DNA of 64,000 bases, from the NCBI RefSeq assembly GCF_030127125.1, contig NZ_CP126157.1, positions 124,001 to 188,000 of the forward strand, in the 5' to 3' direction. Below, in pieces: positions 3,911-62,032 of the stretch. The notes below the pieces were generated by a model. It did not search any database, was not told the origin of the DNA, and worked only from the letters and a program-made list of their open reading frames with translations. Made by a program: the position numbers and the translations under genes. Source of the DNA: Halobaculum litoreum. GTDB lineage: Archaea; Halobacteriota; Halobacteria; Halobacteriales; Haloferacaceae. Positions within the stretch are counted from its first letter, which is position 1; each line of letters starts with the position of its first letter.

Positions 3911-4345
3911 TCAGTCCGGTTGATACGGGTTCGTCGGGGTGTCGAGACGGTACACATCGTCGGCAACGTCGAAGCCGTCATCGAACGCGTAGAGATACCC
4001 GATCCCCTCGGTTTGCATGTACGCGACGATGCAGGCGTCGACGAGCGACAACTGCTCGTACTGCCGGAAGAGCGCTCTTCCCGTGGCGAACCCGTCTTTC
4101 GTCAGCGAGTCGATGTGGACACGAGCGTTTTCTTCGATTCGGTCCAAGAAGTCAGTTGCAGCATCGTGACCCGCGTGCGTCGTGAGCCCGTTGAGCGTCT
4201 CTGCGAGCACGTAATCGAGGACGACTGCTTCCGGGAGCGTCCCGTCGTCGATACCACGAAGGAGCGGAAGCGCGTCGTCGTGCGCGCCGTCGCGGCGGTA
4301 CGCAGCAGCGAAGAGTACGCTCGTGTCGATCAACGCACGCGGCAT
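3911..4345 (-). CDS. vapC: VapC-type PIN-domain toxin ribonuclease
   Basis: This is a 144-residue PIN domain, the usual VapC length. Four acidic residues fit the metal-binding set: D7 (in LIDTSV), E49 (VLAETLNG), D103 (LSLVDACIVAYM) and D122/D123 (AFDDGFD). Family knowledge says VapC toxins cleave RNA, often tRNA, and are neutralised by a DNA-binding antitoxin. The start codon shares one base with the antitoxin stop (TAATG), indicating translational coupling. The pair sits between the AddB-like and AddA-like genes. The target RNA cannot be read from the sequence. Confidence 0.88.
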   Translation of the reverse strand: MPRALIDTSVLFAAAYRRDGAHDDALPLLRGIDDGTLPEAVVLDYVLAETLNGLTTHAGHDAATDFLDRIEENARVHIDSLTKDGFATGRALFRQYEQLSLVDACIVAYMQTEGIGYLYAFDDGFDVADDVYRLDTPTNPYQPD

Positions 4346-4596
4346 TAGCGGACGTCCACTCCCCAGGCATCGTGGTCGGACGTGACGTCGGTTTCCTCGT
4401 CACCGTCATACCCGTCGAACTCGCTGAAGGTCCCACTCCGCTGTTGCACGACACGAACCCGGAGCGTCCCGTCGTCCTCGATCTGCCAGCGGAGGGTATC
4501 ACCGTCGTCGATGTCCAGCTCGCGACGGATTCGAGCGGGGATGTTGGCTTGGTTCCCCGAAACCTTGCTCTCGGAATCGACTGTCTCACCGCTCAT
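4345..4596 (-). CDS. vapB: VapB-type AbrB/MazE-fold antitoxin
   Basis: This is an 83-residue protein. Residues 9-49 (SKVSGNQANIPARIRREL, then a GDTLRW strand) form a swapped-hairpin AbrB/MazE DNA-binding domain. The acidic tail after residue 52 would bind the toxin. The start at 4596 is preferred over an in-frame one at 4671 because the longer version would overlap the palindrome at 4625-4644 and adds 25 residues unlike the family. It is coupled to vapC by a one-base overlap. Autoregulation through the upstream palindrome is inferred. Confidence 0.85.
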   Translation of the reverse strand: MSGETVDSESKVSGNQANIPARIRRELDIDDGDTLRWQIEDDGTLRVRVVQQRSGTFSEFDGYDGDEETDVTSDHDAWGVDVR

Positions 4597-4624
4597 AGGG
4601 CTCCAAAGGGACTCCCCGTACAAA

Positions 4625-4644
4625 GTAGTGTGCGTGCACACTAC
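4625..4644. promoter_or_regulatory. Palindromic operator candidate upstream of vapBC
   Basis: GTAGTGTG and its exact reverse complement CACACTAC are separated by four bases. The site lies 29-48 bases upstream of the vapB start and 31 bases beyond the AddB-like stop. Position and symmetry suit an AbrB-type antitoxin binding site. Function is inferred. Confidence 0.5.
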
Positions 4645-4674
4645 ACGGACTGCGAACGGTCCCCCAGCCACTTC

Positions 4675-7600
4675 TCACTGACTACCCGTAGACTGCGCCG
4701 CGTCCGGAACGTACGCCGTGGCGAGCCCGTGGCCGTCGACGCGGTCGACGCGCTGGTGGTGGCGCACGTCACAGACGTCCGCGTACGCACAGTAGTCGCA
4801 GTTGGCCTTGTCCGCGCCCAACAGCGTCGGATGGTACACCCCCTCGGTCATCGCCTGCGTGATCGTCGTGAGTCGCTCGTCGAGTGTCTCGTGGAGGAAC
4901 TCGTGGAAGCGGTCCTCGGGGTCGAGGTCCGCCTCGCTCTCGCTGCCGCTCAGATCGAGGTCCTCTACCGGTTCGGCGGCCGGATCGCGGTGGTAGTCGA
5001 ACAAGCCGGTGGTGCGAGCTCGTCGCAGGGGTGTGCCGCCGCCGTAGCTCGTGTGGAGTCGACTCGTGAACGGCGACGTCGACATGCCCGCACTCGTCGG
5101 GATGTCGAGGTCGTAGTACGCCGCGCCGACGGCGTCCACGTCGTCGAGCGCCGCCTCCAACAGGCGCAGATACAGCGGGAGCTGGAAACTGGTCCCGCCA
5201 CGGATGTCCGCCACCGACGGATACGACCCCGTCTTGTAGTCGATCGCCGTGACCTGCGTCGGCGTCGTCCCGGCGACCACGTCTACACGGTCGACCTTCC
5301 CGCGGAAGCGGAAGGGCGCCTCCGGGAGCAGGTCGACCGCCTCACCGCCCAGCAGCGTCACCGGGTCGTCGTCACGGCCGGTCGTCGCGACCGGGTCGTC
5401 GATGTGCCCGTCGGCTTCGACGCCGACGTCGGCCTCGACGTACGCCGGGCGAGCGGTGAAGCGACTCGTCTCGTCGGCCAAGCTCCGGAGTGCCCGCACC
5501 AACAGCCCCTCGTAGCCGTCGGGACCGTCGTACTCGTTCGTCCCTGCGGGCTCCAGCCCGGCGAACAGCCGCTGGAGCCACCCGTCGTGGAACGCCGTTT
5601 CGTGGGCGTGGACGTACGGCCGTTCGATCTCGGCGACCGCCGCGTCGTACATCGCCGTCTGGTGGGCTTCGTCCGTCTCGACCGTCACCGGGTCGCCGGG
5701 CGCCGACTGCAGAGAGCGGACGAACCGCGCGAAGATGTTGTGGACGAGGCGCCCGCTGTCGAGCGCATCGAGTTCCAGCGGCTCCGAGTCGGGCTCGTCG
5801 AACCCCAACACCGTCTTCGCGTAGAACTTGAACCCGCAGGACGCGTACCGGTCCACCCGTGAGGGACTCAGCGGCGTCGACGCCGCGGCGAACTCCTGAA
5901 CGGTCTCCGGGGAGAGGTCACCGTCGTAGGCCGTCGTGACCGGACTCCGACGGCCTGCGGCACACGCGACGCCGGCGCGGAGTCGCTCGGTCGGGTCGCC
6001 CGCGGCGTTCGTGAGCGCGTCTGCGTCGGCGATGGCATCGACGAGGTCGGTCTCAGCGGTCGTGGGCGCACCGTCGTCGACGACTGGCTGGTCGGCGAGG
6101 GCGCCCGCGAGCCGACGTTGGATGTCCTCGCGCGAGCGCGGCGCCACGTCCACGTCGTCGACTTGTTCAGTCGGGATGGCGTCCTCGGCAGTGACGCGGT
6201 CGAGTTCCGTGAGGATGTCCGCCGGGACGGTCTCGTCGCCGTCGGTGGTGTACAGCGGGCGTGAGAGGACGACCGTGTCTGCGTCGGCGATCTGGCCACC
6301 GATCGCGTGGCGGGCTTGCTGGACGGCGTCGCTCTCGGCGAAGTCCGGATGGGCGTCGTTGACGCTCCGGGCGAACGCGAGCCGTGTCGGGTTGCTCGGC
6401 ATCCGGTCGTCGGTCAAGCCGAGGACGACCACCGCCTCGACCGAGATGTAGGCCGCCGTACTCGGCGTGCACACGCGGACGTCGTCGGTGGTTCCCGCTT
6501 CGACGTCGACCGTCTCCGAGTCGAACGCGGTCTGGAGGCGTTCGGCGAACTCGACTGTCGGTGGGATCGCCGTCCCCTCGAAGGAGTCGACCACGTCGCT
6601 GACGCCACGGAGGGCGGCGCGTTCGCGGGCGCCGACCCAGCCCGTCGCGTGGTCGGTCGCCAGCGTCCAGTCGTCAGCGTCGGCATCGATGACGCCGAGG
6701 TCACTCAGCAGATCGGTGAGTCGGTCCGGGGCGGTATCAGACGTGCAGTCCGCGAGGCGACCACACCGCTCTTTGAGCCAGTCGATCGCGTCGGCCGTTC
6801 CCGGTTCGTCGGTGGCGAGGTACTCACAGAGGGTGTGGAGGTCCGTCGCCTCGAGGGCGCTGCCGGCAGCGAGGACCGTCGCGGCGTCCACGGGGTCGGC
6901 GGGCCAGTCGGGGTCGGTGAGCGGGTTATCGACGAGTCGGAGCAGGTCGCGGACGGTCGCGTCGTCGGCGCCGAGGCGGAAGGCGTTGACGAGTACCTCA
7001 CCCAGTTCGGTGTTCGCGAGGCCGACCTCGCGAGCGATGTGTGGGGAGAGGTCGTACTGGGCTGCGGTCTCGGCGACCTGTTCGGTGCACGCGGCGAGGT
7101 CGGGGACGACCACCGCGATCTCTGAAGGTGTCGTTCCCGACCCGATCCACTCCGCGACTTGGCGGAACGTCCCGCGGAGTTCGTGTGCGGCCGTAGGATA
7201 GTGGCGGCGTTCGACGCCCGCCTGCTCGATCGTGGATCTCGGGAGCCGGTCGCGGTCGTCGAAACGATACAGTCGTTCGGCAAGCCGGTCCGACGGTCCA
7301 GTCGGTGCTGTGGAGACGAACTCGAAGCCGGCGGCCTCGTAGGCTGTTGTCGCACGTTCGACGGCGCGGTCGATGCCTGCGAGGTGGGCTCCATCGGGGT
7401 CGCCCGCGACCGGGAGGATGGCGTGTGCGTGGTCGACGACGTCGGCGATCGCGGCGACGAGGTCGCGTTCGAGCGGCGAGAACACGGTGTAGCCACCGAA
7501 GACGACTGTCGTCGCCGGCGCGAGTTCAGCCGCGAGGGCGTCGGGGGTGTCGACGACCGTCTGGTAGCGCTCACTCCGGATCGACGGGTGTGTGTCGGTG

Positions 7601-8124
7601 GCGGTGGCGCCAGCGTGATCCTCGCGGGCGGTCGTGAAGGCAGCGTACAGGTCTGCGAGGGCGTCTCTGGTACGGGGGGCGACGTCGGTGAGGCGGTCGT
7701 CATCGCGGACCGCGTCGGCGTCCGTGAGGCCGGCGAACTCCAGCAGTGAAAGGAGGTCCTCCGCTTGGGCGTACGTCTGTGCGCTCGCCGTCGAGCGAGC
7801 GGAGACGAGCGGGTGAGTGGCTGGGAGGGTGTCGACCGCCTGTTCGACGAGGCGCAGGCGCGTCTCGGCGGGCAGGGCGTTCGAACGGGTGTGATAGGTG
7901 GCGCGTTCGAGCGTGTCGGTGACGAGGTCGTCGAAGGTGCAGACCCGGAGTTGGGTCGCGGGGGCGAACTCGCGCCACGTCCGGCGGATACGTGATGGAT
8001 CAGCGCTGGCAGGGGCGAGGTAGACGACCGACTCGGGGAGTGGTGGGGCCTCGTCTGTGGCGCGTTCGAGAGCCGCAGCTTCGGCGCCGGAGCGACGAGT
8101 GTCGACGTGGGCCTGCCGCGTCAT
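4675..8124 (-). CDS. AddB-like PD-(D/E)XK nuclease with Fe-S cysteine motif
   Basis: This 1149-residue protein has the AddB layout. It begins with a helicase-like N-terminal half lacking Walker motifs (strands such as ESVVYLAPAS, SEIAVVVPDL and VEAVVVLGLTDD). The C-terminal PD-(D/E)XK nuclease shows FRGKVDRVD, then TAIDYKTGSYP, then FQLPLYLRL. One cysteine near residue 760 (YASCGFKFYAK) and a C-terminal CDYCAYADVC match the four-cysteine iron-sulfur staple of AddB-type nucleases. It should act with the AddA-like helicase at 1-3704 in resecting double-strand breaks. VapBC separates the two genes. The assignment rests on motif reading, without a profile search. Confidence 0.88.
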   Translation of the reverse strand: MTRQAHVDTRRSGAEAAALERATDEAPPLPESVVYLAPASADPSRIRRTWREFAPATQLRVCTFDDLVTDTLERATYHTRSNALPAETRLRLVEQAVDTLPATHPLVSARSTASAQTYAQAEDLLSLLEFAGLTDADAVRDDDRLTDVAPRTRDALADLYAAFTTAREDHAGATATDTHPSIRSERYQTVVDTPDALAAELAPATTVVFGGYTVFSPLERDLVAAIADVVDHAHAILPVAGDPDGAHLAGIDRAVERATTAYEAAGFEFVSTAPTGPSDRLAERLYRFDDRDRLPRSTIEQAGVERRHYPTAAHELRGTFRQVAEWIGSGTTPSEIAVVVPDLAACTEQVAETAAQYDLSPHIAREVGLANTELGEVLVNAFRLGADDATVRDLLRLVDNPLTDPDWPADPVDAATVLAAGSALEATDLHTLCEYLATDEPGTADAIDWLKERCGRLADCTSDTAPDRLTDLLSDLGVIDADADDWTLATDHATGWVGARERAALRGVSDVVDSFEGTAIPPTVEFAERLQTAFDSETVDVEAGTTDDVRVCTPSTAAYISVEAVVVLGLTDDRMPSNPTRLAFARSVNDAHPDFAESDAVQQARHAIGGQIADADTVVLSRPLYTTDGDETVPADILTELDRVTAEDAIPTEQVDDVDVAPRSREDIQRRLAGALADQPVVDDGAPTTAETDLVDAIADADALTNAAGDPTERLRAGVACAAGRRSPVTTAYDGDLSPETVQEFAAASTPLSPSRVDRYASCGFKFYAKTVLGFDEPDSEPLELDALDSGRLVHNIFARFVRSLQSAPGDPVTVETDEAHQTAMYDAAVAEIERPYVHAHETAFHDGWLQRLFAGLEPAGTNEYDGPDGYEGLLVRALRSLADETSRFTARPAYVEADVGVEADGHIDDPVATTGRDDDPVTLLGGEAVDLLPEAPFRFRGKVDRVDVVAGTTPTQVTAIDYKTGSYPSVADIRGGTSFQLPLYLRLLEAALDDVDAVGAAYYDLDIPTSAGMSTSPFTSRLHTSYGGGTPLRRARTTGLFDYHRDPAAEPVEDLDLSGSESEADLDPEDRFHEFLHETLDERLTTITQAMTEGVYHPTLLGADKANCDYCAYADVCDVRHHQRVDRVDGHGLATAYVPDAAQSTGSQ

Positions 8125-8251: not shown

Positions 8252-9247
8252 TCACTCAACCTCCACACACACCCCCTCAAGCACGTACGCATCCCCACTA
8301 TCCAGCGAGATGTCGTACGTATCCCGCACGGGCCGCTCTGCAACACTGACCACCTCCGCTGATCCGTTGACCATGATCCCGGCGTACGAGCGGATCTTCC
8401 TCGACACAGCAGGCCGGATCGCACTCAACACACGGAGCCGACTATTTGCCCCACGAACGCGGATCCCACCCGGCTCCACCACGTATTCGAACCCGAGCCG
8501 ACTCAACAACTGCTGTAACGCCTTCCGCTGCTCGGGCTTCGTCTGCGTGAACCGGACAGTGTGCCCGTCGAACGAGCCGTCGGTGTCGAACATCCCCGCT
8601 AACCACCCACGACAGTAATCGAGATCGTCGACCAGCGCGGGATCGATCGGCAGGACCTCGTCGAGGAGATCCACCTCCTTCCAGATCGTCGTCCGGATCT
8701 CGTGGAGGCCGTTGAACTCCCGCCCCTTCCGCTGTAGTCCGTACTCGTCGCGGGCGAACGCGTCGACACGCTCGATGATCGCCTCGTCTTGACACCGCAG
8801 GGTGGCGTTCTTCGTCGACTTCGTTTTCACGACACTTCCGTCGCCCGCGAAGGCGCCGTGAACGTACCCATCGCGGTACGCGGGTGAGTGGGGGTCCGGC
8901 GTCGGCGTGAGCACGGTCTTGACGCGTTGGCCCGCCCGGAAGCGACAAGCGTCGCGGAAGTCGTGCGTGTACGGCAGGATTCGTGCGTCCTGCCCGACGC
9001 AGACAGTCACGTCCTCGGTTTGGATCTCTACCGTCGGTTGACGGACACAGGTCACATCGGTCACCTGTGCCGTGTGGAGCCGACGTTGTGTTTGACCACT
9101 CGCAGACGTGACGTGCGTAAGTGACGCGAGCTCATCCCCTTCTGAAACGGTGGAAATGGGCTTCCAACCGAGATCAGCCGTGAGCACGCGCTGGGGAGTT
9201 GGTGGGTCGTACGATGCATCTGTGTAAAGCGATTGCTGGTGTTGCAT
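8252..9247 (-). CDS. Free-standing intein-like Hint/LAGLIDADG homing endonuclease, splicing-dead
   Basis: This 331-residue protein looks like an intein without exteins. Residues 19-41 (QRVLTADLGWKPISTVSEGD) match the intein N-terminal block, but the catalytic first Cys/Ser is absent. The block-B region (81-91, TVCVGQDARIL) has lost the usual T-x-x-H. Two LAGLIDADG motifs with their acidic residues are intact: GYVHGAFAGDGSV (127-139) and RGWLAGMFDTDGSF (213-226). The end (DTYDISLDSGDAYVLEG) resembles intein block F but lacks the terminal His-Asn. Splicing should be impossible, while DNA cleavage remains plausible. No host gene is visible on either side. Confidence 0.82.
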   Translation of the reverse strand: MQHQQSLYTDASYDPPTPQRVLTADLGWKPISTVSEGDELASLTHVTSASGQTQRRLHTAQVTDVTCVRQPTVEIQTEDVTVCVGQDARILPYTHDFRDACRFRAGQRVKTVLTPTPDPHSPAYRDGYVHGAFAGDGSVVKTKSTKNATLRCQDEAIIERVDAFARDEYGLQRKGREFNGLHEIRTTIWKEVDLLDEVLPIDPALVDDLDYCRGWLAGMFDTDGSFDGHTVRFTQTKPEQRKALQQLLSRLGFEYVVEPGGIRVRGANSRLRVLSAIRPAVSRKIRSYAGIMVNGSAEVVSVAERPVRDTYDISLDSGDAYVLEGVCVEVE

Positions 9248-32277: not shown

Positions 32278-32789
32278 ACGTACTTAGCAACGAATGGTCG
32301 TATATGTTTAATGGGCAGCTCTAATCGACCGGCTGTTTCAGGTGATGATCTGTCTGAATAGTAGGATTTCAACAGAGCCGGGTCGTTCCAACGACCCCGA
32401 CCGGGTGTCGGTCGAAACGACGGTTCGATCGGGTTCTCTCCCCGCGGTTCGACCGTTTTTCGGAGGACTTCGACCGTCACCCGTGTACACTCACTCGGAT
32501 TACCGTTCGAGTTCGTTTTCGGTGTAAAGCGTAGCTTGCTGTCTGAGCTTGAAGCTAATAACAGGACATAGGGGGGTATTCATGTACCACGTCGGCGATG
32601 GTCGCTCTACTCGGGGCGGCGTGACTGGCGCAGGAGTTCGGTGAGGGACCCGCCGACGATGAGTCTCCAGCCGGTCCTCAAACGCTTCTCGGACGGTACC
32701 CAGTCGATCGGCGATGCCAGCGCAGGTCGGATTCCACTTTCACTCCACTACCCGACCGGTTAACACCGTCACCCCCATCGGTGAGAGCC
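32278..32789. other. Intergenic with IS-like right end C
   Basis: No gene is seen. It holds the right end C and a GGTTAAC box at about 32757-32763 that could serve the next gene. Confidence 0.45.
32364..32387 (+). repeat. IS-like right end C with following GGGTCGTT
   Basis: GGATTTCAACAGAGCC (32364-32379) is identical to the right end at 30063, and the next eight bases GGGTCGTT differ by one from the GAGTCGTT beside the other ends. Confidence 0.6.
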
Positions 32790-33632
32790 ATGCCGGCGGC
32801 CGAGTCCATCCCCCACGATCCGACCGACCACCCGTTCGAGATCCATCACGGAACCGTCCCCGCGCTCACCGAGCGAGCCGACCGCACACCCGCCAGTACG
32901 GAACTCGTGCTCACCCCGACACGACTGCACCGTCGCAACCTGCGCGACCGCCTTCGTCGCGCGAACGCCCCACAGAGCGTGTTCACGTTCGCCCAGCCGC
33001 TGGACGTGGCGCGGCGACTCGCGGGCGAGCGAGGCGCCCGAACGGAGTGCCTCGACCGAGTCGATAGGCTCTACCACCTCGAAGTCGCCGTGCGCGAGGC
33101 ACGTGACCACGGCGCCGACTGGCACCGCGATCTCGCGGTGTCGATGGGCACCGACCTCGCCGACAGCGCGGAACGGGTCGAGCACCTGCGCGCCGAGGTC
33201 GAGACGACGACCGGGTTCCACCCGGACCGCCTAGCGAGCCTTCGCGCCGCCGCCCGAGACATCGAGGGCCCGGATCGGGAGGACGCGCTGGCACGCATCG
33301 ACGCGGCCGTCGCCCTGCAACGAACGCTCGCCGACCGAACGGACACCGCCCCCTCGGCCGACGCGATCACCCGTGGGGCGACCCGCGAACTCGCCGCCGA
33401 AGGGCAGCCCCTGTGGAACGACGTGTACGCCGACATCGAGCGGGTCACCGTCGCGGGCGTGAGCACGCTCGGTGCGACACTCGTCGACTTCCTCGGATCC
33501 GTCGGCCGAGCGACCGACGCGGACACCGAACTCCGTCTCCACCTCCGGCACGCGACCGGGGAGCCGCTCGCGGAACGCCTCCCCGACCTCTGTTCGGTCG
33601 AGCGCCCCGGCGCGACGGTGATCGAGGGATGA
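32790..33632 (+). CDS. AddB/RecC-like protein, N-terminal half (split gene)
   Basis: This 280-residue protein matches, strand by strand, the N-terminal third of the window's AddB-like protein: TELVLTPTRLHRRNLRDRLR corresponds to the ESVVYLAPAS region, FTFAQPLDVARRLAG to the CTFDDLVTDTL region, and VTVAGVSTLGATLVDFLG to VVFGGYTVFSPLERDL. No Walker A is present, as in AddB/RecC. ATG at 32790 is chosen over a GTG at 32781. Its TGA overlaps the start of the next gene (ATGA), and the next gene continues the same domain order. Function with a RecB-like helicase is inferred. Confidence 0.6.
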   Translation: MPAAESIPHDPTDHPFEIHHGTVPALTERADRTPASTELVLTPTRLHRRNLRDRLRRANAPQSVFTFAQPLDVARRLAGERGARTECLDRVDRLYHLEVAVREARDHGADWHRDLAVSMGTDLADSAERVEHLRAEVETTTGFHPDRLASLRAAARDIEGPDREDALARIDAAVALQRTLADRTDTAPSADAITRGATRELAAEGQPLWNDVYADIERVTVAGVSTLGATLVDFLGSVGRATDADTELRLHLRHATGEPLAERLPDLCSVERPGATVIEG

Positions 33633-34738
33633 GCGACAGTCCGACACCCGAAACCGTCACGGCGAGCACCCGGGAAGCGGAGGCACGCCGGGTCGTGGAA
33701 GTCGTCGCCGACCACGTCGACGAGGGCACCTCGCTCAGCGACATCGTCGTCGTCGCGCCCGACCTCTCGCGCTACGAGGCCGCCCTCACCGACGCGGCCG
33801 GCGCGTTCGACCTCCAGACCGCGGCGTGGACACAACTCCCGCTCACGGACACGCTCCCGTACCGCCTCGTCGCGGCGGTGTGTCGGGTGCTCGTCGACGC
33901 CCCGTGTTCGAGAGCGACGCTGCTCGCCCCGCTCGAGTACGAGTGGGTCCACCCGGAGGCGGCGGACCCGGCACCCGTGCCGACGCCAGCCCTCGCGAGG
34001 CTCGCCCGCGAACTCCCCGAGGAGGAACGCTCGCTCGCGGAGTGGAACGACCTGGTCGCGGAGACGGAGCCGCCGCGGTCGGTCACACGATACCTCGGAT
34101 GGGTCGCGGCCACCCGCGACGGCCCCGATCCGACGCCACAGACCGTTCGACGGACGCTGTCGGGGATCGTCGACCGGTACGAGGAGGCGGTGCTGCCGCG
34201 ACGCCGCGACCGCGACGACGAGGCGTTGGGTGCCACCGCGCGGACGACCCGTTCCGTCGTCCGCATGCGCGACCTCGTCACGCAGGCGGCCGCGACGTAC
34301 GACGACCGCCTCGAGACGGGGATGGAGCCGTCGTGGCGCGCCGTCGACCGCATCGCCGAGACCGTCGCGGGCTACCGCGCCGGCCGCCGGGAACACGCGA
34401 ACGCCCGTGCGCTCGACCTCGTCGAGGCGAACGACACGTGGGGGCTGTCGCGCCCGGTCGTTATCGTCGTGGGGCTCCGCGACGGCGAGTGGCTCCGAGC
34501 ACACGAGAGCGTGCTGACCGACGCGCTCGCACAGCGTGTGCTCGCGGGCGACGGCGGGGGGGGAACGCTCAGCCCCCGGGCGGCGTGGTCCGACGCCGGC
34601 GTCCGTGACCAGTTCCGCGACGCCGTCACGGCGGCGACGGAGACCCTCGTCTGCACCCGGCACCGCCTCGACGCCGACGGGACTCCGTGTCCACCGTCGC
34701 CGCTGCTACGGGAGATCGGGGAGACGGCCGAATGGTGA
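33629..34738 (+). CDS. AddB/RecC-like protein, C-terminal half lacking a nuclease domain
   Basis: This 369-residue protein continues the AddB-like order. LSDIVVVAPDLSRYEAALTD corresponds to PSEIAVVVPDL of the 4675-8124 protein, and RPVVIVVGLRDGEWLRAHES corresponds to VEAVVVLGLTDDRMPS, followed by TLVCTRHRLDADG. It stops before any PD-(D/E)XK or iron-sulfur cysteine region, so it is RecC-like. The four-base ATGA overlap with the upstream gene implies coupled translation or a former single gene split by a -1 shift. Likely partner: the RecB-like helicase-nuclease at 49553-53119. Confidence 0.6.
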   Translation: MSDSPTPETVTASTREAEARRVVEVVADHVDEGTSLSDIVVVAPDLSRYEAALTDAAGAFDLQTAAWTQLPLTDTLPYRLVAAVCRVLVDAPCSRATLLAPLEYEWVHPEAADPAPVPTPALARLARELPEEERSLAEWNDLVAETEPPRSVTRYLGWVAATRDGPDPTPQTVRRTLSGIVDRYEEAVLPRRRDRDDEALGATARTTRSVVRMRDLVTQAAATYDDRLETGMEPSWRAVDRIAETVAGYRAGRREHANARALDLVEANDTWGLSRPVVIVVGLRDGEWLRAHESVLTDALAQRVLAGDGGGGTLSPRAAWSDAGVRDQFRDAVTAATETLVCTRHRLDADGTPCPPSPLLREIGETAEW

Positions 34739-49552: not shown

Positions 49553-52500
49553 ATGCCGGCGGCGACCACCGACCCCCCGACCGACCGTGACGAACTGAAC
49601 GACGAGCAGGCCCGCCTCGTCGACGCCGCGCTGTCGGCGGACGCGGGGTTGTTCGTCCAGGCGTCCGTTCCGGGGTCGGGGAAGACGTACGCGGCCAGTC
49701 GCCTGTGTGCCGGACACGCGATCGAGCGTGCCGCCGCGGGCGACCCGCGACCGCTGGCCGGGCTGGTCGTCGCCGCGTTCAATCGCGAGGCCGCCAACGA
49801 TCTCGTCCCCGAGATCGTCGAGTGGATCCGGTGGGTCGTGGCGACCGACGCGACGACGGCGGCAGCCTCACTCGACGAGGCGGACGCCGAGGCGCTCGTC
49901 ACTGCGGTGCGACGCTCGGGGACGATCGGGACGATCGACGCGCTCCTCCAGCGGGTGTTCGACGACGTCGCCGTCGAACTCGGGTTCGACCCGGCGGTGA
50001 CGGTCGCCGACGACCACGTCGCGAGTCGGCTCCACGCGAGCGCGTTCGAAACCGTCGGCGACGACCCGGAGGTGGCCGACGCGGTCGCCCGACTCGACGC
50101 GGCCTATCCCGGCGACGACGGCGGCCCCAGCGAGCTCGCGACGGTCCTCGAGAACCTCCACAAGGCGGCACGCGATCGCCGGTGGGGCGCCGACGAGGTC
50201 GGGAAGCGACTCCGGGCGGGCCGGCGCGCGTGTTACCCGGACGGCCCCGCCGAGTCGCTCGCGGACGTCGAGCGAGACCTGCGGCGGTTCGACGACGCCA
50301 CGGCGGGCCTCTCGGCTGAAGACCTCCACTGCGAGGAGGAGTCGCTGTGTGCGGCCGACCGACGGCTCTACCGCGAGTGGGGTGCCCGGATCGGCGACCT
50401 CGTCCGCGTGTACCGTTCGTACGCCGCCGCCTACGACCGCCACAGCCGCGAAACCGACACGGTGACCCACGACGACCGTGCCTACTGGGTGGCGCGCTAC
50501 TTCGACGACCCCGAGTGTGCCCACCGGCACGGCGACGCCGATCACGCGCTCGTCGCGGCCCGCCGCGAGCGCCTTCGACGGCGGTGGCGCTCGCGGGTCG
50601 ACCTCCTCGTCGTCGACGAGGCACAGGACGTCTCCGCGGGCCAACACGCCGCCCTCGCGCCGCTCGTCGGCGCGGACACGCGCGTCGTCCTCTACGGGGA
50701 TCCGTTCCAGAGCATCTACACGTGGCGCAACGCCAGCCCGACGCTGTTCGGCGAGGCCGTCGCCGACGGGTCGTACCTCGGTCGCGAGTGGGACACCCAC
50801 GAGGTCGTCACCGCGACGACCACCTACCGCCAGCGGCCCGCGCTCACACGGACGGTCAACGCTACCTTCGGCCCGGCGTTGACCGACGAACGCCGCGGCG
50901 TCGCGCCCACGGTCGAGAGCGACTACGAGCACCTCGACCCCGACCGGTCGACGGCCGACCCGCCCGCGCTCCACGTGCCGACGTTCGACCCGCGGGGCAC
51001 CGCACCGAAGGCCGCCGAGTGGCACGCCAACGAGGGCGACTCCGGCTGCGCGGACGCGCTCGCGGACTACGTCCGCGGCGCGGTCGCCGGCGGGCAGTTC
51101 GGCGACCCCGACGACGCGACGCCGGTGCAAGTGCTGTTCCGGAGCCGGACGTACATGGACCTCGCTCGGGCGACGTTCGAGGGGCAGGGGTTGTCCGTCG
51201 GCGCCGAGCGCGACGTGTTCGCCGCCCCGTACGTCCGCGCGGCCGTCGCGCTCCTCCGGTGGCTCGTGGATCCGACCGACCCGAGTCGAACCGAACACCT
51301 GCTGACCGCCTCGGCGTTCGCCCCCGAGCGGGACTCCGCGACAGCGCGCGGAACGCTCGCGGACACGGTCTCCGAATACGACTGGGACCTCGTCGCGGCG
51401 GCGACGGCGCCGGATGAGCCGAACGACCTGCTCGCGGCGGTGGCCGACCTCGCCGACGACCGTGCCGAGCGGCGCCGGTGTTCCGCGGGCGAACTCGCCC
51501 GCCGGGTCTGTCGACTGTTGGACCCGCACCACGACCCGCTCGACGTCCAGCCCGACGCCACCCCGTCGCTGCGGTGTCGCCTCCGCGACGAACTCGTCGA
51601 CGTGGCCGCGTCGCTCGACGCTCCGAACGTGCCGCTCCGCTCGGTCGTCGCCGGCCTCCGGTCGATGGCCGACGACCCGGGCGACGCGCGACGCCTCGAC
51701 GTCGAGTCGGACGCACACGACGTCGTCTTTCGAACCGTCCACGACGCGAAGGGCGACGAAGCGCCCGTCGTCGCGCTCGCGGACCACGGGCGCGACACCC
51801 GCGCCGTGGGCCTCCACAAGCAGACGGTGATCGCACACGGCGACACGCTCGCGGTGCGGCCGCCCGCGCTCGGCGACCCCGGGAGCGCGGCGACCCACTC
51901 GTTGGGTGCCTACGACGGGGGCCTGATCGGGTCGAGCGAGTCGCCGCGGAACACCCGGACGAACGGGCTTCGGTGGGCGACCGGTCGCCTGCGGGCGGAC
52001 GACGCGACCGGCACGACGTTCGCCGGGCCGCCCGAGTTCGCCGCGGTCGCGGCGGCGAAGCGCGCCGAGGAGTGGCGCCTCGGGTACGTCGCCGCGACGC
52101 GGGCACGCGACCACCTCGTCGTGCCCGTCGACGGCACCGCGGATCGCGACCCGACGCGGTCGTGGGCGCACGCACTCGCCGCCGCGCTGGACGTGGACGC
52201 GCTGGCCGAACGGGAGACGACGAGCGTCGATGTCGACGGCGGCCCCGTCGCCGTGGCCGTGGACGACCTGCCCGGTCTCGGACCGGTCGCCGACCACCCG
52301 CCCTGGGAGTCGTCGACCGCCGCCCCACACGGCACACAGCCGAGGAGCCTCCGGGCGGCCGACGAGCGCGTGTGGCTCCCCCGGTTCCTCAACCCGAGCA
52401 CGTTCCGACCGCTCGCGGATGACCACGACCGGCACGTCCTCGACCACCTCCGACACGGTCAGGTGGACACCGGGACGCGGCGCATCGACCCGGATCTCCC

Positions 52501-53119
52501 GCTCCCCTTCGAGACCGTGGCACCCGGACGCGTGGGCCGGATCGCCCACGACGCCGTCGCGAGCGTCGTCCGCAAGGGGCTGTGGGCGGGCGCACTGCGG
52601 GACGGCTCCCCGGCGGTCGACGACAGCGTGGCGTGGGCCTGTCGTCGCTACGAACGGGAGTTCGAGCCGATCCCGGCGGCGGAGCGCGAACGGATCGTCT
52701 CGTACGTCACCTCGACGGTCATGCCACAGTTCGCCGACGCGGGGGTGTTCCGCCGGGTCGCCCGCGCCGACGCGGTCCACGTCGAGGAGCCGGTGGAGAC
52801 CGTCGTCCGCGTCGACGGCGTCGACCTCGAGGTCCGCGGACAGGCCGACTTCGTGTTGCGGACCGGCGACGAGTGGTCGATCGAGGAGCTGAAGATCGCG
52901 TTCAATCGCGGGGGTGAGCGGACCGACGAGCGCTACCACACCCAGTTGGCAACGTATCGGTGGGTGCTCGCACGACAGGAGGGCATCGACCCGACGGCCG
53001 TCGGCGCGCGGGTGACCCACCTCGGGGAACGCCGCGGCGAGGTGACGTCGGTGGACGACCGGTTGGACGACGAGCACGTGCGGGAGTTGCTCGCGACGCT
53101 GGGGCCCGACACGGAGTAG
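49553..53119 (+). CDS. RecB-like UvrD-family helicase with C-terminal PD-(D/E)XK nuclease
   Basis: This 1188-residue protein has Walker A GSGKT (41-45), Walker B VDEAQD (about 354), VLYGDPFQSIYTWRN (about 380-390), FRTVHDAKGDE (about 730) and YVAATRARDHL (about 845). The last 100 residues carry a RecB-type nuclease: GQADF (about 1097), EELK (about 1110) and HTQLATYRW (about 1130). There is no cysteine cluster. A helicase-nuclease fusion needs a RecC-like partner, and the split protein at 32790-34738 fits. Its start context (GTGAGCC-ATG-CCGGCGGC) resembles that of 32790. The partnership is inferred. Confidence 0.88.
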   Translation: MPAATTDPPTDRDELNDEQARLVDAALSADAGLFVQASVPGSGKTYAASRLCAGHAIERAAAGDPRPLAGLVVAAFNREAANDLVPEIVEWIRWVVATDATTAAASLDEADAEALVTAVRRSGTIGTIDALLQRVFDDVAVELGFDPAVTVADDHVASRLHASAFETVGDDPEVADAVARLDAAYPGDDGGPSELATVLENLHKAARDRRWGADEVGKRLRAGRRACYPDGPAESLADVERDLRRFDDATAGLSAEDLHCEEESLCAADRRLYREWGARIGDLVRVYRSYAAAYDRHSRETDTVTHDDRAYWVARYFDDPECAHRHGDADHALVAARRERLRRRWRSRVDLLVVDEAQDVSAGQHAALAPLVGADTRVVLYGDPFQSIYTWRNASPTLFGEAVADGSYLGREWDTHEVVTATTTYRQRPALTRTVNATFGPALTDERRGVAPTVESDYEHLDPDRSTADPPALHVPTFDPRGTAPKAAEWHANEGDSGCADALADYVRGAVAGGQFGDPDDATPVQVLFRSRTYMDLARATFEGQGLSVGAERDVFAAPYVRAAVALLRWLVDPTDPSRTEHLLTASAFAPERDSATARGTLADTVSEYDWDLVAAATAPDEPNDLLAAVADLADDRAERRRCSAGELARRVCRLLDPHHDPLDVQPDATPSLRCRLRDELVDVAASLDAPNVPLRSVVAGLRSMADDPGDARRLDVESDAHDVVFRTVHDAKGDEAPVVALADHGRDTRAVGLHKQTVIAHGDTLAVRPPALGDPGSAATHSLGAYDGGLIGSSESPRNTRTNGLRWATGRLRADDATGTTFAGPPEFAAVAAAKRAEEWRLGYVAATRARDHLVVPVDGTADRDPTRSWAHALAAALDVDALAERETTSVDVDGGPVAVAVDDLPGLGPVADHPPWESSTAAPHGTQPRSLRAADERVWLPRFLNPSTFRPLADDHDRHVLDHLRHGQVDTGTRRIDPDLPLPFETVAPGRVGRIAHDAVASVVRKGLWAGALRDGSPAVDDSVAWACRRYEREFEPIPAAERERIVSYVTSTVMPQFADAGVFRRVARADAVHVEEPVETVVRVDGVDLEVRGQADFVLRTGDEWSIEELKIAFNRGGERTDERYHTQLATYRWVLARQEGIDPTAVGARVTHLGERRGEVTSVDDRLDDEHVRELLATLGPDTE

Positions 53120-55848: not shown

Positions 55849-57213
55849 ATGGCAGTCCTAGACGACCTCTCCGGGTTCGAGTTCGAAGATCTCATGGAGG
55901 ACGTGTTCCGCACCCTCGGCTACGAGAACGTCCACCAAGCGTCGAAGACCGCCGACGAGGGGCGGGACGTCCTGATGGAGGAGGTCGTCGACGGGAGCCG
56001 CCGCGGTGTCGTCGTCGAGTGCAAGCACACCGAGACCGTCGGCCGCCCGGTCGTTCAGAAACTGCACTCGGCGGTCGCGACATACGACTTCGCGGGCGCG
56101 AAGCGGGGGATCGTCGTCACCACCGGGCGATTCACCGAGCCCGCACGCGAGTACGTCGAACGGCTCGACACGAGCGGCGACCCCTACCCGATCGAACTGA
56201 TCGACGGGACCGACCTGCGTTCGATCGCCGACGAGATCGGCCTCGACCTGTACAACGGCCGCATCGAGATCCTCTGCTCCGAGGCGCTTCGACCGTACGA
56301 CCCCGCCGCCTCCGTCCGGGCCCCCGTCGAGGAAGCGTTCGGCGAGATCGACAACCTCGACGTGGGTCAACTCCCCGAACCGCACTCGCGGGTCTCGTTC
56401 CGCCCGGTCGTGACGGTCACCGCGGACACGAACGCCGTCTTCGAGACGTCGGTCGGCGTCGTCCACCGGATCGACGACCGAACTCGGTTCGTCGTGCACG
56501 CGGACCGCGGACGACCCACGGTCGCCGAGTCGTCCGTCGCCGACCTCGTCGTCAGGAACCGCGACACGACCGTCGACGTCGACGACGAACGGATCCGCGA
56601 CGCCTTCGACGAGGTCGAGGAGCATCGGTTCGGGCAGACGCAAAGCGAGTACACGGAGTGGGCCGTCGACCGGCTCCGCGAACACCACACGACGACGGTG
56701 ACCTACACCGGCGACAACAACGTCACGTACACCAAAGAGTGCGAGCCGTCCGGCTCGGACGTCACCGTGCGGTCGGTCGACCCGGTGTACCTCCCGGCGG
56801 TGCGCCACACCACCCACCTCGAGGAGTACACCTATCCGTTCGAGTACTTCGCCGCGGGCCCCTCCCGCGTCGCCACCGACGATCGGATCCGCGCCTGCGT
56901 CCACTGTGACACCGCCGGACGCGACGGGTCGTACACCTACTGCGCCAACTGCGGCGCGATCGCGTGTCCGAGCCACACGAGGACCGAACGGCTCGAGCAG
57001 GCGCCCGTCTGCACCGGCTGCGCGGTGACCGAGCGCTTCGCGTTGAAGACGAAGTACTTCTACGACGAGGAGAACCGCGAGTCGTTCCGCGAGCAGTACG
57101 CCGACATGCCGATCCACCGGAAGGCGATGGAGAACACGTGGCTCGTCGCCGGGGGCGCCGTCGCAGCCGTGCTCACGCTCCTCGCGACGCTGGTCGTGGC
57201 GGGAGCGGTCTGA
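55849..57213 (+). CDS. Mrr-like restriction endonuclease with zinc-binding and C-terminal membrane segment
   Basis: This 454-residue protein has an N-terminal Mrr-type PD-(D/E)XK domain: EGRDVL (Asp about 40), VVVECKH (Glu 57, Lys 59), and a Gln in PVVQKLHSAVATYDF. A strand-rich middle part is followed by a cysteine-rich region (CVHCDTAG, CANCGAIACPSH, CTGCAV; about 350-400), which should bind zinc, and one hydrophobic helix at the C-terminus (WLVAGGAVAAVLTLLATLVV). The order nuclease, zinc modules, membrane anchor is unusual. Mrr enzymes cut modified foreign DNA, so a membrane-tethered defence function is inferred. Confidence 0.8.
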   Translation: MAVLDDLSGFEFEDLMEDVFRTLGYENVHQASKTADEGRDVLMEEVVDGSRRGVVVECKHTETVGRPVVQKLHSAVATYDFAGAKRGIVVTTGRFTEPAREYVERLDTSGDPYPIELIDGTDLRSIADEIGLDLYNGRIEILCSEALRPYDPAASVRAPVEEAFGEIDNLDVGQLPEPHSRVSFRPVVTVTADTNAVFETSVGVVHRIDDRTRFVVHADRGRPTVAESSVADLVVRNRDTTVDVDDERIRDAFDEVEEHRFGQTQSEYTEWAVDRLREHHTTTVTYTGDNNVTYTKECEPSGSDVTVRSVDPVYLPAVRHTTHLEEYTYPFEYFAAGPSRVATDDRIRACVHCDTAGRDGSYTYCANCGAIACPSHTRTERLEQAPVCTGCAVTERFALKTKYFYDEENRESFREQYADMPIHRKAMENTWLVAGGAVAAVLTLLATLVVAGAV

Positions 57214-57813: not shown

Positions 57814-58146
57814 GGGGCGAGCCGGTCGAGCCAGTACCGATCCGGGAACCGACCGAAGAGAACCGGAACGATCCGGGATCGTCCCGTCTTCGCGGCTCCC
57901 CGTGTCTGATCGCCCGCCCGTGAGGGCCTCCACACCTGCGGCGCGTACACCGTGAGGAGCAACTCCCGTGGACGCGTCCCGCCCGCCGCAGAAACCATAA
58001 CGTTCTTTGATTGTCTTCTTGCGAACGATTTGGGAATACAGGAAGGTTTAATAGACAATCAGTTCTCTGAAGCGCGTAGAGACGACCAATATCGGAATCC
58101 GAGTCGATCTCGGAGGCCCGGTACTTGGCGCCGATCGAAGCATACG
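57814..58146 (+). other. Leader and promoter region of dabB
   Basis: No gene is seen. TTTAATAG (58047-58054) is a TATA-like box about 93 bases before the dabB start, implying a leader. A frame starting at 57952 is open to dabB but lacks family match before 58147. Confidence 0.4.
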
Positions 58147-59643
58147 ATGACGGGACACAACTCGAAACCGACGGTCGGAGGGCTCTGGGACACGACGACG
58201 ACGTCGTCGTCCGTTCCGGTCGCACTGACGTGGCTCGTGTGGTCACTGTTCGCTGCCAGCATCGTCGCCCTCGCGGCCCGAGTCCGGTTCGAAGGCGTGT
58301 GGGAGATCCCCGGCCTCGTCGCGGTCGACGGGCTGACCGTCCTGATGTGGGTGGTCGTCACCTTCTTCAGCGGCATCGTCCACAGCTACTCCCGGCGCTA
58401 CATGGCGGGCAGCGCCCACCAGACCGCCTTCTTCGCCACGGTGTTCGGGTTCACCCTCGTCGTGATGGGACTCGTCGCCGCCGACAGCGTCGTCCTGTTC
58501 GGGCTGTTGTGGCTCGCGATGGGTCTGCTGATGGCGAAGCTCATCGGGATCGTCGACGGCTGGACACAGGCACAAGAGGCCGCGTCGGTCGCCCGGCGGT
58601 ACTTCCTCGCCAGCGGCGCGCTGCTCGGCGTGTCGTTGGCGGCGCTGTGGTGGGCGACCGGAGCGACGACGATCTCGGGGATAGCGGCGGCGGCGGGGAC
58701 GCTCGGCGGGCCGGTGTGGCTCCTCGCGGCCGCGTCGCTGGTGCTCGTGGCGATGGTCCAGTCGGCGCTCGTCCCGTTCCACGGGTGGCTGCTCTCGTCG
58801 ATGACCGCGCCGACCCCGGCCTCGGCGCTGATGCACGCCGGCTTCGTGAACGCGGGCGGCATCCTGTTGGTCCGGTTCGCGCCCGTCGTCACCGTCGACC
58901 CCGGACTCATGCTCGCGGTGGTCGCCGTCGGCGGGGCCAGCGCCATCGCCGGGAAGCTCCTGAAGTCGGTGCAGACGGACGTCAAAGGGAAACTCGGCTG
59001 CTCGACGGTCGGCCAGATGGGCTTCATGATCATGCAGGCCGGGCTCGGGTTCTTCGGCGCCGCCATCACCCACCTCATCCTGCACGGGTTCTACAAGGCC
59101 TACCAGTTCCTCTCGTCCGGGGGACGGATCGAGCGCACCGAGCCGGCCGAGGGGACCCCCCACACGGTCGGCCCCGTGACCAGCGCCGTCGGCTTCGCGG
59201 CGATGCTGCTGACCGGGCTGGGCGGCGGCGTGTTGTTCGCGGCGCTGACCGGGAAGGGGACCGCGGTCGACGCCGGCCTGCTGCTCACCTTCTTCGTCGT
59301 GTTGACGACGCTCCACGCGGCCCGCAGCGCGGTCCACACCACGTCGCTGTCGGCGACGGCCCGCTACGGCGCGGTTCCGCTGGTGTTCTTCCCGGCGATC
59401 GTGGTGTACGCGGTCGTCTACGAGGCGGTGGCGGGGCTCCTCGCGGGGCTCCCCGTGGTCACGGCGCCGACCGAGCTCACCGTGCTCCACGCGGCCATCG
59501 CGGTCGGCTTCGTCGGCATCTACGTCGCGATCGAGACGGGGGTGCACGAGCGCAGTCGGCGGCTGTACGTACTGTTGTTGAACGCCAGCCAGCCCGCGGC
59601 AGCCACCCTCCAGACGTCCGCCGAGGAGTACAATGAGTACTGA
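58147..59643 (+). CDS. dabB: DabB: NuoL/MrpA-like membrane subunit of the inorganic carbon pump
   Basis: This 498-residue protein has about 13 membrane helices, with proton-channel features typical of NuoL-type antiporters (TAPTPASALMHAGFVNAGGIL, KLGCSTVGQMGFMIMQAGLG, HLILHGFYKAYQFLSSG). It overlaps dabA by 11 bases, the hallmark DabB-DabA arrangement. Family knowledge: the DAB complex couples ion flow to one-way hydration of CO2 to bicarbonate, concentrating carbon inside the cell. ATG at 58147 is used. Confidence 0.88.
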   Translation: MTGHNSKPTVGGLWDTTTTSSSVPVALTWLVWSLFAASIVALAARVRFEGVWEIPGLVAVDGLTVLMWVVVTFFSGIVHSYSRRYMAGSAHQTAFFATVFGFTLVVMGLVAADSVVLFGLLWLAMGLLMAKLIGIVDGWTQAQEAASVARRYFLASGALLGVSLAALWWATGATTISGIAAAAGTLGGPVWLLAAASLVLVAMVQSALVPFHGWLLSSMTAPTPASALMHAGFVNAGGILLVRFAPVVTVDPGLMLAVVAVGGASAIAGKLLKSVQTDVKGKLGCSTVGQMGFMIMQAGLGFFGAAITHLILHGFYKAYQFLSSGGRIERTEPAEGTPHTVGPVTSAVGFAAMLLTGLGGGVLFAALTGKGTAVDAGLLLTFFVVLTTLHAARSAVHTTSLSATARYGAVPLVFFPAIVVYAVVYEAVAGLLAGLPVVTAPTELTVLHAAIAVGFVGIYVAIETGVHERSRRLYVLLLNASQPAAATLQTSAEEYNEY

Positions 59644-62032
59644 ATCCACCATCCACGACAGCATCGAGGCGGCAGCGACCAGCGTCAACTCCACGTGGCC
59701 GATCCACTCGTTCGTGACGGCCAACCCCCTCGCGGGGTTCGAGGACTTGCCGTTCGAGGAGGCCGTCTCGCGGGCCGCCGGCCTGCTTGGTGGCCACGGG
59801 TACCCCTCCGCGGAGACGTTCCGGAAGGCGCTCGACCGGGGGCAGATCGACCCCGAACGCCTCGAGGCGGAGCTGGCGGAGGCCGGCTTCGAGGGCGACC
59901 CCGAGGCACACCTCGCGCGGATCGCCGAGGCACGGACCGCGGCCGAGCGCGGCCCCGACACCCCGGCGGACCGCGTCGACCGGATCCTCGTCAAGTGGCT
60001 GTCGGCGTTCCTCGACGAGGGCAGCGCCCACTGGTCGATGCCGAACCGGGAGGCGGGCTTTTACGCGGCGTTCCGCGGGATGGCCGGCCACGACGGCACC
60101 ATCCCGGACGAGGGTGTCGTCACGGCGTTGCCCGAGAGCCCGATCGAGACGATCACGACCGTGCTCGAGCCGTACCCGGAGGGCCAGTGGCCCGCCGTGT
60201 TCGAGGCACAGCTGGCCGCCCTCCCGGGGTGGACGGGGGTGATCAAACAGCGTATCGAGGAGGGTGGCTCGTGGCAGTCGACGTACCCCGTCTCCCTGGA
60301 GGGGTACCTCGCCGTGCGCCTCGCGCTGGCGGACGCGCTGGGCGTCGATCTGACCCCCGACCGCGACGCCCCCGAATCCGACCCCGCCGACGAACTCGCC
60401 GGGGCGTTCCTCCGGGCGTGGGAAGCGACCTACCGTGACGAACTCGTCGGCGCGGTCGCCGACGAGGCCGCGTCGATGGCGGACGCGGACGCGGGCGGTC
60501 GCCCGGACGCCCAACTGGTGTTCTGTATCGACACCCGGTCGGAGGTCATTCGCCGCCACATCGAGGCGGTCGGCGACTACGAGACCTACGGCTACGCCGG
60601 ATTCTTCGGGATCCCGATGGAGTACCAGGAGTACGACTCGGACGTGTGGGTCAAGGCGTGTCCGCCGATCCTCGACCCGCAACACCGGATCCCCGACTTC
60701 CCGACCGACGCCGAGACGAAGGCGAACCACGACCGGTGGTGGAGCGTCCGCGAGGCCGCCGACGAGGTCATCGAGTCGCTGGAGGCCAACGCGGCCACGG
60801 CCTACGGGTTCGTCGAGAGCGCGGGGAGCGGCTACGGGCTCGCGCTCGCCGCCCGCACGCTCGTCCCCGGCCGCGTCCACGACTGGGTCGACGCCCTCCG
60901 CGCGTCGGTGCCCGACGAGGAGGAGTTCTGCGACCCGGTGGTCCACCACCAGCACACCTACTCCGGCGACCTGCCGGTGGGACTGACCGACGACGAGAAG
61001 GTGGAGTACGCGGCCACCGCCTTCGAGCTCATGGGGTGGGAGACGTTCGGCCGCCTCGTGGTGTTCACCGGTCACGCCAGCGAGACCGCCAACAACCCCT
61101 ACGCGGCGAGTCTGGACTGTGGTGCCTGCGCCGGGAACCCCGGCGGACCGAGCGCGCGCGTCCTCGCGGCGATCTGTAACGACGACGACGTCAGGACGGC
61201 GCTCCGCGACCGCGGGTTCGACATCCCCGAGGACACGCTGTTCGTCGCCGGCGAGCACAACACGACGACCGACGAGGTGGAGCTGTTCGGGGACGTCCCC
61301 GAGAGCCACGCGGCGGACCTCGCGCGCCTGCGGGCGGACCTCGAGACCGCCCGCGAGACCGCGACCGCCGAGCGCGCCGAGACGATGGACGCGGACGCCG
61401 ACAGCGGCGTCCGGGAGACGCAGCGCCGTGCGGCCGACTGGGCCGAGACCCGCCCCGAGTGGGGGCTGGCCGGCAACGCCGGGTTCGTCGTCGGACCACG
61501 CGCCCTGACGAGCGGACTCGACCTCGACGGGCGCTCGTTCCTCCACTCGTACGACTGGGCGACCGACCCCGACGGCGACGCCCTCGAGGCGATCCTCACC
61601 GGCCCGATGGTCGTCACGCAGTGGATCAACAGCCAGTACTACTTCTCGACGGTCGACAACGCCGTCTACGGCAGCGGCTCGAAGGTGACCCACAACCCCG
61701 TCGGGAACATCGGCGTCTACCAGGGCAACGGCGGGGACCTGATGACCGGGCTCCCCCTCCAGTCGCTGCTGGCCGCCGACGACGAGCCGTACCACCAGCC
61801 GCTTCGCCTCTCGACGGTCGTCCACGCGCCCGTCGACCGGGTCACCGACGTGTTGACCGCGCACGAGGCGTTGGCCCAACTGCTGGACAACGAGTGGCTC
61901 TCCCTGACGGTCGTCGACCCGACCGAGGACAACCGCGCCTTCCGCTACGACGGCGGTCTCGAGTGGACCCCGGCGTTCGAACCGGCCGCCGCGCGCGTCG
62001 AGACGCCGGACCCCGCCGTGGCCGACGACTGA
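59633..62032 (+). CDS. dabA: DabA: zinc-dependent carbonic-anhydrase-like subunit (DUF2309)
   Basis: This 799-residue protein has the family start NSTWPIHSFVTANPLAGFED. The zinc ligands resemble known DabA: Cys and Asp in VFCIDTRSEVIRRHIE (about 296-311), His in VFTGHASETANNPY (about 480), and Cys in LDCGACAGN (about 495). It is cytoplasmic and bound to DabB. It should convert CO2 to bicarbonate vectorially. Translational overlap with dabB supports joint synthesis. Use by a haloarchaeon may feed anaplerotic carboxylation. Confidence 0.9.
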   Translation: MSTESTIHDSIEAAATSVNSTWPIHSFVTANPLAGFEDLPFEEAVSRAAGLLGGHGYPSAETFRKALDRGQIDPERLEAELAEAGFEGDPEAHLARIAEARTAAERGPDTPADRVDRILVKWLSAFLDEGSAHWSMPNREAGFYAAFRGMAGHDGTIPDEGVVTALPESPIETITTVLEPYPEGQWPAVFEAQLAALPGWTGVIKQRIEEGGSWQSTYPVSLEGYLAVRLALADALGVDLTPDRDAPESDPADELAGAFLRAWEATYRDELVGAVADEAASMADADAGGRPDAQLVFCIDTRSEVIRRHIEAVGDYETYGYAGFFGIPMEYQEYDSDVWVKACPPILDPQHRIPDFPTDAETKANHDRWWSVREAADEVIESLEANAATAYGFVESAGSGYGLALAARTLVPGRVHDWVDALRASVPDEEEFCDPVVHHQHTYSGDLPVGLTDDEKVEYAATAFELMGWETFGRLVVFTGHASETANNPYAASLDCGACAGNPGGPSARVLAAICNDDDVRTALRDRGFDIPEDTLFVAGEHNTTTDEVELFGDVPESHAADLARLRADLETARETATAERAETMDADADSGVRETQRRAADWAETRPEWGLAGNAGFVVGPRALTSGLDLDGRSFLHSYDWATDPDGDALEAILTGPMVVTQWINSQYYFSTVDNAVYGSGSKVTHNPVGNIGVYQGNGGDLMTGLPLQSLLAADDEPYHQPLRLSTVVHAPVDRVTDVLTAHEALAQLLDNEWLSLTVVDPTEDNRAFRYDGGLEWTPAFEPAAARVETPDPAVADD

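Follow-up and report, generated by a model that had tools for sequence, protein, structure and literature searches.

A probable compact, nuclease-less, two-chain AddB/RecC-like scaffold with a predicted AddA/RecB-like partner in haloarchaea

The described systems nearest to the locus treated here are the bacterial AddAB helicase-nuclease, whose AddB subunit keeps a Walker A motif in Bacillus subtilis, and Escherichia coli RecBCD. Fusions of UvrD with Cas4 have been described in defence contexts, mesophilic archaea included (Hudaiberdiev et al. 2017, PMC5704561). DNA-end resection in archaea has been described as historically unclear (PMC7690668), and Haloferax volcanii is without HerA-NurA (PMC7776575). 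No paper on the module reported below was found in the open-licence literature, and its genes are currently annotated as two hypothetical proteins and a 'UvrD-helicase domain-containing protein'. The present study analyzes a window of 64,000 nucleotides from Halobaculum litoreum, part of a 265,357-base contig in a genome of 3.04 Mb. Our main reading, to which we give a probability of roughly 0.8, is that two overlapping genes of the window, ORF1 and ORF2, specify the motor-dead, two-chain scaffold of a compact DNA-end helicase-nuclease of the RecBC/AddAB type that works with an AddA/RecB-like partner. It draws on homology and fold, on motifs lost from the scaffold and intact in the partner, on adjacency and matching divergence of the genes, and on a conserved overlap with a ribosome-binding-like site. 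The features concerned are as follows.

32780-32784, forward strand: Shine-Dalgarno-like GGTGA upstream of the ORF1 start ATG; weak and mostly unconserved in relatives
32790-33632, forward strand: ORF1, 280 amino acids, stop TGA at 33630-33632; predicted to be the N-terminal, domain 1-like half of an AddB/RecC-type subunit with a dead motor
33617-33623, forward strand: Shine-Dalgarno-like GGTGATC within the end of ORF1, 5 nt upstream of the ORF2 start
33629-33632, forward strand: ATGA stop-start overlap of ORF1 and ORF2; a 4-nt NTGA is kept in relatives
33629-34738, forward strand: ORF2, 369 amino acids, start ATG at 33629; predicted to be the C-terminal, domain 2-like half of that subunit, stopping before the position of the AddB nuclease
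49553-53119, forward strand: AddA/RecB-like subunit, 1188 amino acids, UvrD helicase plus PD-(D/E)XK nuclease; inferred partner, 15 kb from ORF2

Both ORF1 and ORF2 are real genes under purifying selection, because their orthologues lie side by side in 42 same-family loci, as they do in almost every one of 51 named loci, and because dN/dS against Halobaculum marinum is 0.30 for ORF1 and 0.33 for ORF2 (0.47 for the partner gene at 49553-53119; all by Nei-Gojobori count). Neither has a match in Pfam, NCBIfam or PADLOC. The earlier note had claimed that the two frames follow the domain order of the window's own AddB-like protein (4675-8124) up to, but not including, the nuclease and Fe-S region, and this was borne out by profile alignments to AddB columns. 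A profile of fused orthologues aligned with columns 48-627 of a 1093-column profile that includes the window's AddB (E 2.4e-10), while window-led profiles aligned with the haloarchaeal AddB profile over columns 36-226 for ORF1 (E 2.5e-5, weak when taken alone) and columns 297-629 for ORF2 (E 5e-11). The PDDEXK_1 domain of the window AddB occupies residues 752-1119, and similarity to ORF1 and ORF2 ends short of it. The fused-orthologue profile matched a second haloarchaeal full-length type more strongly (E 5.3e-30, columns 34-733 of 1148). This second AddB-like type (L079-L081; 1114-1211 amino acids) has no Pfam nuclease match, keeps Fe-S-like cysteines and adjoins an AddA with a recognised nuclease, and of the full-length proteins found, its members are the nearest relatives of the split pair.

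Predicted structures point to the same family. The query was L118, a fused orthologue of 678 amino acids from Haloferax elongans, aligned with further fused orthologues and, in separate rows whose placement was checked, with the split ORF1s and ORF2s. Its model (pLDDT 93.2, pTM 0.90) had AddB 3u44_B as the top solved match (E 8.5e-19, TMq 0.67 by query length), and it also matched UvrD-type helicases and RecC 8b1t_C (E 2.1e-16, TMq 0.57), ranked after AddB. ORF1 of the window modelled alone (AF2, pLDDT 93.7) gave AddB 3u44_B, 4cej_B and 3u4q_B as its best PDB matches, followed in fourth place by RecC 7mr4_C, with AdnB matched too; ORF2 is represented by the corresponding second part of the L118 model. 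The AddB/RecC likeness proposed from the letters was thus recovered by structure prediction, with AddB as the best solved match. A PDB sequence search with the fused profile returned nothing, the matches coming from fold comparison alone, and an hhalign comparison with E. coli RecC covered 67 columns at a probability of 2.4 and was set aside. At the sequence level no similarity to bacterial RecC is detectable, so it is the fold that links the pair to RecC. Exonuc_V_gamma (PF04257) matched neither ORF1 nor ORF2, nor anything in five haloarchaeal genomes, whereas the E. coli control was matched. No Pfam nuclease was found in ORF1 or ORF2, Walker A was present in none of 56 orthologues of the pair, and an Fe-S cysteine cluster was not conserved, with a single mostly-Cys column across both. 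Judged by profile and model, then, ORF1 and ORF2 together appear to be an AddB/RecC-type subunit without a nuclease or Fe-S domain.

Several observations concern other genes of the window and its relatives. The canonical AddB of the window is separated from AddA by a PIN-domain-like ORF and an AbrB-like ORF (3911-4671, reverse strand), which by eye resemble a VapBC toxin-antitoxin cassette; in one relative (G006) no genes intervene and AddB overlaps AddA. Immediately upstream of the canonical AddB is a LAGLIDADG homing-endonuclease/intein-like ORF (8252-9247, reverse strand). A second canonical AddB on the same replicon (L158, G000 C2:107381-110830) has 76% identity to the window AddB and no recognised AddA gene alongside. 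On the forward strand, 55849-57213 encodes a protein with an Mrr-type restriction endonuclease domain, and 57952-62032 a proton-antiporter-type protein followed by DabA, likely a DAB pair for inorganic-carbon uptake.

The earlier note left three explanations for the two-gene form: a stable two-subunit protein, a -1 recoding site or a fresh frameshift. The ATGA overlap was confirmed at 33629-33632, and comparison with relatives, which the note had suggested, showed mostly two genes. The 42 family loci comprise 32 split and 10 fused ones, with an exact 4-nt NTGA overlap in 31 of the 32 split; among 51 named haloarchaeal loci, a set that overlaps with the first, 41 are split with exactly this overlap and 8 are fused. 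The overlap count excludes L091, which is broken or cut, and L133, in which ORF2 starts 10 nt before the end of ORF1, and it includes L140, interrupted inside ORF2 by a contig end. On a tree of 56 loci, which has a long outgroup branch and weak deep support, split and fused states cluster and require only two changes, and the same was found on the tree of the partner. The split is therefore old and has been maintained across several haloarchaeal families. The existence of fused orthologues (10 family loci, 8 named loci), and an ORF2 frame that in the window has no stop codon in the 526 nt before the junction, could be taken to mean that a recent frameshift or sequencing error broke one fused gene in this genome. 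Because independent genomes conserve the split, this reading is refuted and has practically no probability left, and the fresh frameshift can be set aside: independent assemblies show the identical split and NTGA overlap at 41 named loci, split and fused loci each group on the tree with no more than two changes, and selection is purifying on both genes. It is the stable two-subunit form that is supported by recurrence of the split in most orthologues. The fused forms of Natrialba and Salinadaptatus are nested among split ones, suggesting either that the two genes were rejoined in one lineage or that the split arose repeatedly. In the fused L118 model the breakpoint, with the junction position read from sequence, falls between strands 271-275 and 288-295 at a dip in confidence, and thus in the linker that joins the two helicase-like halves. 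Such a natural cut would mark a site at which a RecC/AddB scaffold tolerates a two-chain form.

Judged from sequence, the junction itself looks more like a site of translation start than one of frameshifting. Of 43 split loci, 26 have a Shine-Dalgarno match of at least 5 nt ahead of ORF2, compared with 3.6% and 9.1% in two controls, and 16 have one of at least 6 nt, compared with 0-1.8% in controls. Programmed -1 recoding at the overlap, which would yield some fused protein plus free ORF1, is compatible with the geometry of the overlap and with an upstream Shine-Dalgarno-like site that could stimulate a shift. However, the element is mostly spaced as for normal initiation, and no more than 6 of 42 loci have a slippery heptamer of the form X XXY YYZ within the usable stretch, without a position in common. 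The room for a -1 shift is also short in some loci (7-16 nt), with 7 nt in two and 10 nt in two more. We consider recoding very improbable, and initiation at the ORF2 start the better description of this junction.

The partner, normally the gene next to ORF2, escaped the earlier note. It directly follows ORF2 in 41 of 42 family loci, was recovered at 48 of the 51 named loci, and on annotated plasmids overlaps ORF2 by about 10 nt. The product of 49553-53119 matches the Pfam models UvrD-helicase (1.4e-16) and PDDEXK_1 (1.3e-9), and the NCBIfam AddA and RecB models below their curated cut-offs. Its SF1A helicase motifs GxGK and DEAQD and the RecB-type nuclease residues H, D, K, Q and Y are invariant in 53 of 53 sequences, and no Fe-S cysteine cluster is conserved in it. 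Pairwise distances for ORF1 plus ORF2 and for the partner are correlated (r 0.97 over 53 loci), a value to which the common ancestry of linked genes contributes in part. Genus-mates that are without ORF2 are also without the partner, save for a broken fragment in one. No third neighbour gene recurs in more than 8 of the 51 named loci, and no RecD-like gene was noticed among neighbours. The exceptions to adjacency are H. marinum, where the partner is about 7 kb away, and the window, where it is 15 kb away, and because it has moved, matched expression is not guaranteed in these two. An alternative explanation could be that the relocated genes of the window no longer cooperate and that ORF1 and ORF2 are a decaying orphan pair, which would fit an operon broken in both Halobaculum genomes that hold the pair and the absence of the pair from nine other genus-mates. 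This we regard as improbable, since all three genes are open and the dN/dS values between the two separated copies indicate that they are constrained even though separated, and the short tail of ORF2 in the window is shared with a relative whose operon is intact (L057). The H. marinum plasmid (G004) carries the AddA/RecB-like gene twice (L165, L166), with equal scores, and only one copy is near ORF1 and ORF2.

Taken as a two-chain scaffold with its partner, and by homology to AddAB and RecBCD, the module would work in the following manner. The scaffold would be produced as two chains, cut at the linker between its helicase-like halves, and these would clamp the AddA/RecB-like protein, probably in a 1:1:1 assembly, with the partner serving as the sole ATP-driven motor and sole nuclease. 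Once assembled, the complex would engage a free end of duplex DNA, which the scaffold would hold while splitting and steering the strands, and the partner would drive along one strand, unwinding and cutting. Such activity of the complex on DNA is predicted from its parts, and its role may be to resect ends, to repair DNA or to destroy foreign DNA. A more speculative extension, which we think rather unlikely, is that division of the scaffold is itself functional: the halves might associate in a reversible manner, either at the DNA end or on the AddA-like motor, providing a control of strand loading or sequence recognition that single-chain RecC and AddB do not have, and a route of end resection in haloarchaea that are without HerA-NurA.

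The module is patchily distributed. Of 392 genomes from the order Halobacteriales, 59 gave a match; some five of these are the full-length second type, so that the split or fused module is in about 14%; a phylum-wide sample gave no match outside the order Halobacteriales, and a scan of viral contigs gave no relative. Fifteen plasmid records, all haloarchaeal and all annotated 'hypothetical protein', hold relatives of ORF2, one of them a 24%-identity match that may be of the other type, and the H. marinum plasmid NZ_CP119991.1 carries relatives of ORF1 and ORF2. This patchiness, the frequency on large plasmids, the UvrD-nuclease fusions reported in defence contexts (PMC5704561) and PADLOC GajB models that match the partner, over its UvrD helicase part only, are possibly consistent with a dedicated defence against viruses or plasmids in place of a general repair enzyme, with which the same biochemistry would be compatible. 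Yet neither ORF1 nor ORF2 matches any PADLOC defence model, no defence neighbours are conserved (beyond the three genes, none occurs in more than 8 of 51 loci), and annotated plasmid surroundings are mixed; a dedicated defence role is possible, if on the unlikely side. As a two-chain scaffold with a helicase-nuclease partner, in about one in seven haloarchaeal genomes, the RecBC-like module is a concrete candidate for archaeal end resection, and one that is testable in genetically tractable haloarchaea.

The module is best read as a compact variant of the RecC/AddB scaffold, made of two chains and without a nuclease, together with its probable AddA/RecB-like partner, and it shares different features with each of the known systems. 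With bacterial AddAB (PDB 3u44, 3u4q, 4ceh) it shares an AddB-like fold as the top structural match, an AddA-like helicase-nuclease partner and, in the part that is retained, the domain order of AddB; in contrast to AddAB, the haloarchaeal B subunit consists of two polypeptides and is without nuclease, Fe-S cluster and Walker A. The likeness to E. coli RecBCD (RecC; PDB 1w36, 8b1t) is in a single active nuclease on the RecB-like subunit, which is a prediction for the haloarchaeal module, and in a scaffold that is a dead helicase fold without working motor motifs, whereas the haloarchaeal scaffold is split, has neither the C-terminal region of RecC nor detectable sequence similarity to it, and has no conserved RecD neighbour. 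The full-length AddB-like proteins of haloarchaea (window 4675-8124; L079-L081) are homologous across the retained region but are single chains of about 1070-1260 amino acids that keep the C-terminal region. Finally, UvrD-Cas4 fusions (PMC5704561) likewise join a UvrD helicase to a PD-(D/E)XK nuclease, but the partner here lacks the cluster of Fe-S cysteines that a Cas4 protein should have, and its neighbour is an AddB/RecC-like scaffold rather than restriction genes, and it is by these cysteines and neighbours that the two are set apart.
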